A stretch of DNA of 64,000 nt from Bradymonas sediminis (GTDB lineage Bacteria; Myxococcota_A; Bradymonadia; Bradymonadales; Bradymonadaceae). The stretch is from contig NZ_CP030032.1 of the NCBI RefSeq assembly GCF_003258315.1, positions 3,784,501 through 3,848,500 on the forward strand, given 5' to 3'. Positions 1 through 56,187 of the stretch are shown piece by piece. A program made the translations under genes and the position numbers. The notes beneath the pieces were generated by a model. That model did not search any database and was not told the DNA's origin. It saw only the letters and a list, made by a program, of their open reading frames with translations. Position 1 is the first letter of the stretch; each line of letters opens with the position of its first letter.

Positions 1-2
1 AA

Positions 3-257
3 TATAAGAATCCCAAATTTGGTGATTACCTAAAGATCTTCCAAACGCTGATCGAAGATGGTCAGGCGAGCGGAATCTTTCGCCGGGATGTTGACCCGCG
101 ACTGATCAGCCGAGCGTGCTTCGGCGCGCTTGATGAGGTCCTATTGCAGCTCACCCTATCAAAGGCCGACGCCGCCGAGGTCGAGGACAAAGCCTCGCAG
201 GTGGCCTCGGTCCTGGTGGCGGGGCTCTTAGAGCGCCCGGCGAGCAGCGCTGACTGA
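3..257 (+). CDS. TetR/AcrR-type regulator, C-terminal part only
   Basis: The frame is open from the window edge to a TGA at 255-257 and gives the last 84 residues of a protein whose start lies outside the window. The visible part is helical and contains GQASGIFRRDVDPRLIS followed by ACFGALDEVLLQL, a layout typical of the C-terminal ligand and dimer domain of TetR/AcrR repressors, especially the FadR/YsiA kind that respond to acyl-CoA. The DNA-binding half cannot be seen. Position just upstream of etfBA fits a regulator of fatty-acid oxidation, since FadR-type TetR repressors often sit beside etf genes. That role is an inference from context. Confidence 0.6.
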   Translation, partial: YKNPKFGDYLKIFQTLIEDGQASGIFRRDVDPRLISRACFGALDEVLLQLTLSKADAAEVEDKASQVASVLVAGLLERPASSAD

Positions 258-52998: not shown

Positions 52999-53038
52999 AA
53001 AAGAGCGGCCACTTCCCGAAGGAAGTGGCCGCTCTTTT
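52999..53038 (-). terminator. Terminator of rpsU (bidirectional form)
   Basis: AAAAGAGCGGCCACTTCC and GGAAGTGGCCGCTCTTTT form an 18-bp stem, loop CGAA; on the minus strand an extended T-run follows. Confidence 0.92.
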
Positions 53039-53058: not shown

Positions 53059-53292
53059 TTAGCCGCGACGGTTGTCACGACGACGCTCACGGCGCTCTTC
53101 TTTGCGACGACGACGCTCAGCTTCACGCTGCTTGCGACGCTTGGCGACGCTGGGCTTCTCGTGGAAACGACGACGCTTCAGCTCGCGGCTGACGCCTTCG
53201 CGGCCGATCTCTCGTTTGAGACGGTTGAGCGCGCGGTTGATATTGTTATCCCGAACTTCAACCTCAATGGGTCCTAATTCATCTCTGGACAT
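53059..53292 (-). CDS. rpsU: 30S ribosomal protein S21
   Basis: A 77-residue basic protein of the S21 family: VEVRDNNINRALNRLKREIGREG, ELKRRRFHEKPSVAKRRK, then an Arg-rich tail. It binds near the anti-Shine-Dalgarno region of 16S rRNA. TAGGAGC lies 6 bases before the ATG. It stands alone rather than in the usual rpsU-dnaG-rpoD unit, with hairpins in its leader. Confidence 0.95.
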   Translation of the reverse strand: MSRDELGPIEVEVRDNNINRALNRLKREIGREGVSRELKRRRFHEKPSVAKRRKQREAERRRRKEERRERRRDNRRG

Positions 53293-53384: not shown

Positions 53385-54065
53385 TCAGTGCAACAGGCGA
53401 CGCACGATCGGGTCGACGCCCGATTTGGCCGAGATAGCAGCGGCGCTGAACGCGATCCAAAAATATTTGAACGCGTCGGCATCGCCCGACTCAAGCGCGG
53501 CGATCAGGTCGACCTCATAGAAGGTCGCCATCAGGCCCGAGGTGTCGCGGTGGAACAGACGCCAGGTGCGACCGTTGGTCAACATGCCCCACTCCAATCC
53601 GGTTGCGCGGATATAGCGGTCGATGTCGATGGCCGGGTTCATCGGGCCGGCTTCTTCTTCCATCTCGTCGAGGGACGCGTCCCACGCCAAGCAGCGCACG
53701 ATCGCCAGACCGTTGGCGAAGAACTCACGCTCGCCGCGGTATTGCACAGCGGTATTGAAGGCTTGCGCCGTCTCAAAGAGCGTGAAGTCGGGGCGTTGCT
53801 CGTCGGCTTCGATGGCGTCAGGCACCATTTCTGCGACGCTATAGACGTAGCCAAGCGCGCGAAGCACGTAGCTTACCCAGAAATACCGGGTTTCCATCTC
53901 GTTCAAGCCCTCTTCGATCTGCTGCTCGCGCTTCTCAAGAAGCTCCTCGAGCGAGCGACGAACGGCTTCGATCGACTCAGATTTCCATTCGGGATATTCG
54001 TTCACCTGGCTGAATCGCTCACTCTCGAACAACTCGCCGACGTTACGGTAGACTTCGTCTGCCAT
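53385..54065 (-). CDS. Stand-alone restriction-type N-terminal domain, active site lost
   Basis: A 226-residue protein resembling the N-terminal PD-(D/E)XK region of type IIG/ISP restriction-modification enzymes. The shared features are RPDFTLFETA (92-100), AIVRCLAWDASLD (121-133) and TGLEWGMLTNGRTWRLF (155-171) followed by FYEVDL. In active enzymes the middle segment reads VEAKxWxxxLD, with Glu and Lys catalytic; here it reads VRCLAWDASLD, so the catalytic Glu and Lys are missing. No methyltransferase or target-recognition domain follows. GGAGAG precedes the ATG. It lies upstream of rpsU on the same strand. Confidence 0.7.
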   Translation of the reverse strand: MADEVYRNVGELFESERFSQVNEYPEWKSESIEAVRRSLEELLEKREQQIEEGLNEMETRYFWVSYVLRALGYVYSVAEMVPDAIEADEQRPDFTLFETAQAFNTAVQYRGEREFFANGLAIVRCLAWDASLDEMEEEAGPMNPAIDIDRYIRATGLEWGMLTNGRTWRLFHRDTSGLMATFYEVDLIAALESGDADAFKYFWIAFSAAAISAKSGVDPIVRRLLH

Positions 54066-54279
54066 TTTCTCTCCGGTGTGACCCAGCCTTATAAGCTTAG
54101 TCGTCTATTAAATGTATATGCGATCTGGAATGCGGCTTATTAACAAATCAAATCGGCGCGTCAATATAAGGAAACCCCCCGTGCTGTCAAGGCGATGACA
54201 TTATACTTCTTGCGCTGCACGCGCGCCGAGACTCGCCGGCAGACGGCGCCTAAGCGCCGCCTGCCGCTGAAACCCCCAA

Positions 54280-56187
54280 TTATTGGGCGCTAAACTGGTA
54301 CACGGTCTGCGAGGAAGCGTTGCCCTCGGTCAGCGTCAACGCGATCTTATATTGCCCCGCGGTGTCCGGGAAGATCGTGGCGTCCGGGCCGATCTTATCA
54401 ATGAAGGTCTGGCTGCCCGCCGGGCGCTCAAGCAAGGTCCACTGCGCGCGGTTGATCGTGGTGTCCGCGAACCCGGTGCTCAACAGCGCGTTGAAGCGCG
54501 CTTCGGTATTCACCGGCACCGCGTCGTCGCCAAAGGACGGCGTCACCACGGCCTCGGCCGTCGAGGCAGCGCCCGACAGCGCGATGAGCGAAATGAACAT
54601 CTCTTCACCGGCGGTGTTGGTGCCGAAATAAAGCGCCGCGCGGTCGTCGCTCTCGTCATCCCCCTGATAGGTCACGGTGAAGGTCTGCATATCCCCCGGC
54701 GCGATCGTCGTGCCGTTGGTCATGCTGGTGCTAAAGGTCGCCGCCGAATTCGGAATGACGTCCGTAATCGCGACGCCCGACGCCACCAGCGGCTGGGTGC
54801 CGACGTTACGCATGACGAAGCTGCGGGTCACGTTCTCACCGGCCGCCGCGCGGAAGGTGAAGACGTCCGGCGATATCTGGCCGATCGGCGCGTCACCGAC
54901 GTCGCCCAGCAGCTCGATCTGAGCCATATCGTTTTGGGATTGCTCGTTGACGAAATAATTATAGAGCACCTCGAGCGTCCCGATGCCGCCGGGGTCGCTG
55001 CCGGGCGCGAAAGTGATCTCATAGTCCTGCGTCTCACCGGCGCCGAGCACCTTGGTGTACTGACCGACAATCTCGTTGCCGTTCTCTTTAATCGTATACA
55101 TCGCCTGGGTGGTCGACGGGAGAACCGCGAACCCACGCAGCGTCAGGCTCGCCGCGCCTTCGTTGCTGATGGTGAAGGTCTGGGTGGCCTGGCCATCGAA
55201 GCGCAGCAGCTCCGGGGTGAGCTTGATCGCCGGGCGGCTCGCCTCTGAGGTGACCTGCACCGGAATCTGCTTGACCGGGTCGTTATGCGCCGACGATTTG
55301 ATCTCAAGGTTGGTGCCAAAGCTGGTGCCATCCCAATCCGACGACGGCGTGAAGCCCAGCGTCCAGGTCTCCGAGGCGCCCGGGGCGAGCTGGATGGGCA
55401 GCGAGGGCGCGGCCGAAACCGTGAAACGCTCCACGAATTCGCGCGGGCGAATCGAGCTGATGGTCAGCGGTTGGTCGCTATGAGTATTCGTGATCTTGAT
55501 ATCACGGCTGTCACTGCTGCCGACGTTCACCCCGGCGAAGCTCACGCTCTGCGGGGAAACCTCGATCGTTCCGCTGCCTTCCACATGCGTGAAGAAGACG
55601 CGAATATCGCCGTCGACGATGGTCGGCGCGTTCGTATTCTGCGCGTTGGTCTTAATCTTCAACTCGCCGCAATAATTCGCAGGCGCATCCGCGTCGCCCA
55701 CTGGCGCCGCCGGGCAATTCATGCCGCCGGTGCCCGGGACAATGATCGTCTCAATCGAACTCGACGCTCCGGGCGCGATCTCGAAGGGAACCTCCGGCAT
55801 GCCGACCTTTCGGCACAGGCCATTGAACGACCAGCACACCGTGCTCTCGGGGCACGCGCCGCTGGAGTCAAAGGTCGGCGCCGCGTCCGCGTCAAAGGAA
55901 CACGTCGTGTCCAAATACTCGCCGGCGACGAGCAGGCGCTCGGGCTTGGAGCTAAAGTCGATCTCCGAGACCTTCAGGTCCGCCTTGCCGTCATTGGAGA
56001 ACGCGATCGTCGTTTGGGCCTGCATACGGCGGTCCGTGGCCGGCATTTGCAACGCCAACGGCGAGGCCGTCTCAAGCTTCACCGACGCCAACTTTCCCTC
56101 GCCAAAACTATCGTCGTCGCCGCAAGCCGAAACCCCGGCCACGCCGAGCACGAGGCTCGCAATCAATACTTGAATCTTAAATCTCAT
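54280..56187 (-). CDS. Lipoprotein with ASH/choice-of-anchor-D type domains
   Basis: A 635-residue protein; signal LGVAGVSAC (Cys22). Several immunoglobulin-like units of the ASPM-SPD2-Hydin or choice-of-anchor-D kind: VSPQSVSFAGVNVGSSDSRD, LTPELLRFDGQATQTFTISNEG, ISPDVFTFRAAAGENVTRSF. Early Cys residues (about 75-175) form disulphide pairs. The last part (about 545-635) is PKD-like (VPVNTEARFNALLSTGF...PDTAGQYKIALTL). TAGGAGC precedes ATG. Probably an outer-membrane-attached surface protein. Confidence 0.8.
   Translation of the reverse strand: MRFKIQVLIASLVLGVAGVSACGDDDSFGEGKLASVKLETASPLALQMPATDRRMQAQTTIAFSNDGKADLKVSEIDFSSKPERLLVAGEYLDTTCSFDADAAPTFDSSGACPESTVCWSFNGLCRKVGMPEVPFEIAPGASSSIETIIVPGTGGMNCPAAPVGDADAPANYCGELKIKTNAQNTNAPTIVDGDIRVFFTHVEGSGTIEVSPQSVSFAGVNVGSSDSRDIKITNTHSDQPLTISSIRPREFVERFTVSAAPSLPIQLAPGASETWTLGFTPSSDWDGTSFGTNLEIKSSAHNDPVKQIPVQVTSEASRPAIKLTPELLRFDGQATQTFTISNEGAASLTLRGFAVLPSTTQAMYTIKENGNEIVGQYTKVLGAGETQDYEITFAPGSDPGGIGTLEVLYNYFVNEQSQNDMAQIELLGDVGDAPIGQISPDVFTFRAAAGENVTRSFVMRNVGTQPLVASGVAITDVIPNSAATFSTSMTNGTTIAPGDMQTFTVTYQGDDESDDRAALYFGTNTAGEEMFISLIALSGAASTAEAVVTPSFGDDAVPVNTEARFNALLSTGFADTTINRAQWTLLERPAGSQTFIDKIGPDATIFPDTAGQYKIALTLTEGNASSQTVYQFSAQ

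Follow-up and report, generated by a model that had tools for sequence, protein, structure and literature searches.

The nearest described case to the gene analysed here is HVO_A0006 of Haloferax volcanii, a 219-aa solitary type IIG N-terminus that lies among transposases and has an intact PD-EAK site (PMC4389544). Catalytically dead members of the same fold are also on record—the N-terminal domain of RPB5 has the PD-(D/E)XK fold without the catalytic residues (PMC551604)—and mL37 and mL65 of the animal mitoribosome have been described as repurposed endonucleases (reviewed in PMC8998825). We analysed a 64,000-nucleotide stretch of the Bradymonas sediminis genome (the window), which encodes a solitary pseudo-nuclease directly upstream of rpsU. 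No description of this solitary family was found in the open-licence papers searched, and the papers and family libraries searched held no well-conserved bacterial family derived from a type IIG nuclease domain.

The pseudo-nuclease gene (53385–54065, minus strand) is a complete open reading frame of 226 aa with an ATG start and, as read from the sequence here and in homologues, a GGAG ribosome-binding site (54071–54074, minus strand), in line with a preliminary description of an intact gene with a good ribosome site. The single-contig 5.05-Mb genome holds one copy. The protein is acidic (pI 4.5, net charge about −20; pI 4.2–5.8 across the solitary family), has lysines at positions 28, 45, 200 and 214 only (none from 46 to 199) and lacks a methyltransferase or target-recognition domain. 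Residues 55–214 matched positions 58–213 of the PADLOC REase_MTase_IIG profile (E = 2e-12), and the PADLOC DrmMI profile also matched (E = 2e-7), through the N-terminus alone. No family in Pfam, NCBIfam or PHROGs passed its cut-off or had a convincing E-value (Pfam HSDR_N_2, PF13588, reached 13.2 bits, below its gathering cut-off of 25), and searching solved structures by sequence, whether with the single protein or with profile A2, returned chance matches only. Alignment with the N-termini of fused type IIG enzymes runs end to end and includes the PD motif, the TNG..WRL strands and the PAxx helix. The fold-defining parts that had earlier been described as kept correspond to PDF at residues 92–94 and to TGLEWGMLTNGRTWRLF at residues 155–171 (53553–53603, minus strand), a strand pair common to the fused type IIG relatives and placed by both alignment and model. 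Judged by sequence, the window protein is a homologue of the N-terminal nuclease domain of type IIG/DrmMI enzymes.

Structure prediction was consistent with this assignment. The AlphaFold2 model, built from a five-row alignment of the window protein and certain loci that left out the solitary homologues, had a mean pLDDT of 67.6 (medium confidence) and a pTM of 0.69. Its order of helices and strands is that of the PD-(D/E)XK core (helix 56–70, strands 75–77, 94–97 and 120–124, helix 144–155 and strand 159–163), with the PDF and VRCL segments on or beside strands 94–97 and 120–124. Foldseek searches with the five-sequence model gave weak E-values (best 0.17, BpuSI), and a second structural comparison ranked BpuSI (Z 8.8), an HsdR fragment (8.7) and DrdV (8.3 and 8.0) at the top, all of them restriction nucleases. 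The preliminary description had proposed structure prediction against PD-(D/E)XK domains as a check; at the medium confidence of the model, the core order was seen and restriction nucleases came first. The next match was a mitoribosome chain (chain s, which we take to be mL65) with a Z of 6.9, within the range of chance matches, and in this model it is no evidence when taken alone.

The active site has been lost in a specific way. Its former 'PD' half, R91-P92-D93-F94 (53784–53795, minus strand), keeps the first acidic position (D93), as do 26 of the 27 solitary homologues (D in 19, E in 7, S in 1). At the place of the catalytic (D/E)xK, V123-R124-C125-L126 (53688–53699, minus strand) shows Glu replaced by Arg and Lys by Leu: the window protein reads IVRCL where VVEAK is expected, and its VRCLAW aligns with CEAKRW, AEAKYW, ESKRW and DAKRW of fused homologues, the Trp being invariant. 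The QxxxY motif has lost its Gln, to which D147 (53625–53627, minus strand) corresponds. The aligned solitary homologues share this pattern—the Glu position is Arg or Lys in 25 of 27 proteins (one of the other two has Cys, one Ala), the Lys has given way to a non-polar residue (L, A, V, I, F or M) in all 27, and the Gln position is Asp or Glu in 26. Ten fused relatives (drawn from genomes G003, G109 and G118, haloarchaeal plasmids, Sinorhizobium and a viral contig) have PD in 10/10, E/D in 10/10, K in 8/10 and Q in 9/10. The preliminary description was therefore right in reading VRCL where VEAK is expected, now assigned to residues 123–126 against fused homologues; its claim of a replaced catalytic motif stands for Glu and Lys and extends to the QxxxY Gln, with the correction that the Asp of PDF is retained. 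The homologue alignment that it had suggested shows the Glu and Lys loss to be common to 27 proteins that all stand alone, while the fused enzymes mostly keep the site. A shifted alignment that restores the Lys was considered and excluded, because a shift cannot rebuild the site in a protein with no Lys from 46 to 199.

One solitary protein (L017) is the sole member to keep the Gln and is also one of the two without a basic residue at position 124, a single case that may point to a salt bridge joining residues 124 and 147. Two haloarchaeal fused enzymes (L094:4294-5043 and L099:4228-4977) have D-x-E for D-x-K, so that Lys loss occurs in fused copies too. Solitary homologues of family f4 (L042:9133-9879 and L030:1141-1932) have an insertion close to the former active site; rich in Pro and Glu and varying in length, it separates the conserved Trp from the PxxEL helix.

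Several other polar residues are conserved in the solitary proteins: E79, R110 and T181 in 27/27, D149 and H172 in 26/27 and R153 in 25/27. Such conservation would suit a protein that is still an enzyme with a migrated or new site (D93, E79, D149 and R110/R153), for example a Mg2+-free RNA-processing nuclease, and EndA, of the same fold, does carry a different RNase active site (PMC551604). However, the window protein has no core Lys and has a basic residue at a former metal ligand, and the conserved residues could equally stabilise a metal-free fold or form a binding site; we regard a surviving activity as rather unlikely.

A solitary gene of about 225 aa was found in 33 of the 57 genomes searched of the class, taken to be Bradymonadia, nearly always as one copy per genome. 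With profile A1, built from the solitary homologues, it was detected in 18/21 genomes of the window's family (f1), 6/6 of f4, 8/8 of f5 and 1/1 of f6, and in none of f2, f3 and f7, where the sole signal was a weak match within a long f3 frame. No rpsU match was obtained either in the three f1 genomes that lack the gene; every other f1 genome has one, and the missing locus is for this reason likely to be an assembly gap. Further profile matches in the wider phylum fell in longer frames, mostly >1000 aa, that is, mainly fused enzymes. A scan of GTDB contigs with the single protein returned one relative, a fused and degenerate one (L031), matches examined in plasmid records were fused enzymes, phage records gave no matches, and scans of viral contigs yielded two clear fused relatives (L105/L112 and L101) and none in further scans. 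The GTDB relative (L031:5521-7878, bacterium UASB270) is type IIG-like, its nuclease domain is degenerate, and the gene directly 3' of it is transposase-like.

In a maximum-likelihood tree a branch supported at 100/100 sets all 27 solitary proteins apart; f1, f4 and f5 are each a group of their own, and f6 is placed beside f5. This single clade and the shared loss of the site suggest one inactivation, probably an ancient event. Pairwise dN/dS (NG86) was 0.03–0.22 in near pairs (0.22 for the window against G010, 0.06–0.09 in one f1 genus and 0.03–0.12 in f5), and by this measure the solitary gene is under purifying selection and kept for its protein. The earlier suggestion that a nuclease domain was kept after its catalytic loss thus gains from a loss shared by 27/27 proteins, all solitary and in one clade, at a dN/dS of 0.03–0.22.

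Descent from a defence enzyme leaves room for a role in immunity, in which the dead copy would poison incoming type IIG or DISARM enzymes or sense phage factors that target such enzymes. One genome (G003) does encode, besides the dead solitary protein, a fused type IIG enzyme that looks intact (L045:1649-5923, with AEAKYW). Against such a decoy stand the vertical inheritance of the gene, the plasmid records with their fused enzymes only and the phage records with nothing, the lack of defence genes beside it and a promoter of house-keeping type (both below), and we consider it highly unlikely. The fused enzyme of G003 lies about 2.5 kb upstream of a parB-like gene.

The neighbourhood of the gene points in another direction. 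As stated in the preliminary description, it adjoins rpsU (53059–53292, minus strand; bS21, 77 aa, pI 11.7, net charge +14.6), which is the next gene on the same strand and begins 92 nt after the pseudo-nuclease stop. An intrinsic-terminator-like hairpin of 18 pairs lies 3' of rpsU (52999–53038, minus strand) and is the probable end of a two-gene transcript, and from this arrangement the two genes are predicted to form a co-transcribed unit. Using tblastn, we found the solitary gene followed by rpsU on the same strand in 16/18 genomes of f1, with gaps of 9–195 nt where measured; the exceptions, G009 and G006, have rpsU on another contig. Two genomes of this family (G004 and G005) have a second rpsU elsewhere, and one copy stays beside the pseudo-nuclease. 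In f4, f5 and f6 the solitary gene is present and rpsU was not found adjoining it, the neighbours being a GNAT acetyltransferase and a PLP enzyme in f4, and a Ser/Thr kinase, a beta-lactamase-fold protein and RuvX in f5. Since these families, G009 and G006 keep the gene without rpsU beside it, rpsU is not an obligate neighbour; and since f2, f3 and f7 have rpsU without the solitary gene, bS21 does not need the pseudo-nuclease in general. The other neighbours in the window include an Ig-like (HYDIN/ASH) protein and ABC transporters. Ten neighbours were scanned and no methyltransferase, defence or Drm gene was found among them, only generic ABC ATPase matches, which agrees with the earlier remark that no methyltransferase lies nearby. 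The HYDIN/ASH protein, which also carries PKD (54280–56187, minus strand), is upstream in most f1 genomes and evolves fast (mostly 24–43% identity) despite its conserved position.

About 100 nt upstream of the ATG lies a sigma-70-type promoter-like site, TTGACA-16-TATATT followed by GACGCGCC (54163–54190, minus strand). A perfect TTGACA with a fitting second hexamer was the best upstream match in 27/28 solitary homologues, including those without rpsU, and in 12 of 337 control ORFs of the same loci (p about 1e-30), a contrast that is inflated because spurious and operon-internal ORFs are among the controls and the homologues are not independent samples. In the whole window genome there are six occurrences of TTGACA-16..18-TATNNT-2..8-GCC, against none in a reversed control. 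These six sites precede the pseudo-nuclease gene, rpsL–rpsG, rpsA, a tRNA-His/Arg/Leu cluster and two other places, and in these bacteria the promoter type may be the signature of a translation regulon tied to growth; from its upstream sequence, the pseudo-nuclease looks to be expressed like the translation genes. The sites before rpsL–rpsG, the tRNA cluster and rpsA lie in loci L144, L147 and L148, and a trigger-factor-like gene follows the tRNA cluster.

A promoter-like site and rpsU in most f1 genomes could also mean that the gene is a passenger, conserved only for the rpsU promoter upstream of it, with a product of no important role. We give almost no credence to this explanation, as the protein itself is under purifying selection and f4–f6 keep the gene and its promoter-like site with rpsU elsewhere.

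The solitary domain might instead act in trans, pairing with the methyltransferase of a type I or IIG system encoded elsewhere and altering or blocking its activity, a mode of action that has been proposed for HVO_A0006. Deletion of HVO_A0006 altered m6A methylation (PMC4389544). Methyltransferases of the N6_Mtase and Eco57I families do occur elsewhere in the window genome, and the TNG..WRL parts shared with fused enzymes are kept. Nevertheless, no methyltransferase-fused enzyme with a matching N-terminus was found in that genome, and HVO_A0006 keeps PD-EAK and sits among transposases, whereas the solitary family analysed here is dead, old and chromosomal, beside rpsU. Restriction–modification systems turn over fast, so that dependence on them would be improbable for a single-copy gene kept this widely; the promoter type of the gene is that found before translation genes. 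We thus judge pairing in trans to be quite unlikely.

The explanation that we prefer is exaptation of the nuclease domain, which is well supported. The sequences strongly indicate that the N-terminal PD-(D/E)XK domain of a type IIG/DrmMI-like enzyme parted from its methyltransferase, lost its active site in an ancestor within the class and was from then on inherited vertically as a single-copy house-keeping gene. In the window's family this gene mostly stands first in a pair with rpsU, and the promoter-like site upstream of it belongs to the type found before ribosomal-protein and tRNA genes of the window genome. The mode of action is most likely binding rather than cutting. In the former Mg2+/DNA cleft, the swapped charges (R/K124 and D/E147, with D93) may form salt bridges that replace the metal. 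A general DNA-binding role was marked down on account of the acidic charge (pI 4.2–5.8), and rRNA binding is likewise disfavoured: strong acidic charge lowers the odds of a nucleic-acid ligand and raises those of a basic partner. With a net charge of about −20, the protein would probably bind a basic or translation-linked partner, and the simplest would be bS21 (net charge about +15), to which it might act as a chaperone or assembly factor, or else the ribosome. Taken as a whole, the genomic context favours a role tied to translation over one in defence. For the complete explanation—a pseudo-nuclease from a type IIG/DrmMI-like domain that is now a translation-linked binding protein—we see about an even chance. 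A domain inactivated once, in a common ancestor of several families of the class, with its charges reversed, that is now a dedicated translation factor, such as an acidic bS21 chaperone or assembly factor paralleling the repurposed endonucleases of the mitoribosome, is a more tentative proposal, and bS21 or the ribosome as the partner, our preferred hypothesis, is similarly doubtful because the pairing with rpsU does not extend beyond f1.

Dead PD-(D/E)XK proteins are known, and the solitary family adds a clear before (fused and active-looking) and after (solitary, with the site reversed). It makes the conversion of a defence enzyme into a house-keeping protein open to direct testing, in a context that points to translation and not to defence, and its near-universal presence in several families of marine predatory bacteria, together with its usual pairing with a ribosomal-protein gene in the window's family, suggests a weapon turned into a house-keeping binding protein. 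It is also a warning, as a defence-finding profile matches (E = 2e-12) a protein without the residues and domains of a restriction enzyme.

The solitary family shares the PD motif, the TNG..WRL strands, the PAxx helix and the fold with the N-terminal domain of type IIG/DrmMI enzymes (haloarchaeal L096 and L098, BpuSI and DrdV), from which it differs in having no methyltransferase or specificity domain and in a (D/E)xK and Gln that are lost and charge-reversed. In contrast to DISARM, in which DrmMI takes part, the window protein has the N-terminal match only, with no Drm genes among the ten neighbours scanned. mL37 and mL65 have been described as repurposed endonucleases in a translation context, and the model has a weak structural match to a chain taken to be mL65; they are, however, constituents of a eukaryotic ribosome that touch rRNA, whereas the window protein is acidic and a mere candidate for ribosome binding. 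The N-terminal domain of RPB5 differs in belonging to an RNA polymerase subunit and in not being derived from a type IIG enzyme. HVO_A0006 is, like the window protein, a solitary type IIG N-terminus, yet it is rare, keeps an intact site, has transposase flanks and is tied to adenine methylation, whereas the solitary family has lost its site, occurs widely in its class and is syntenic beside rpsU in one family.
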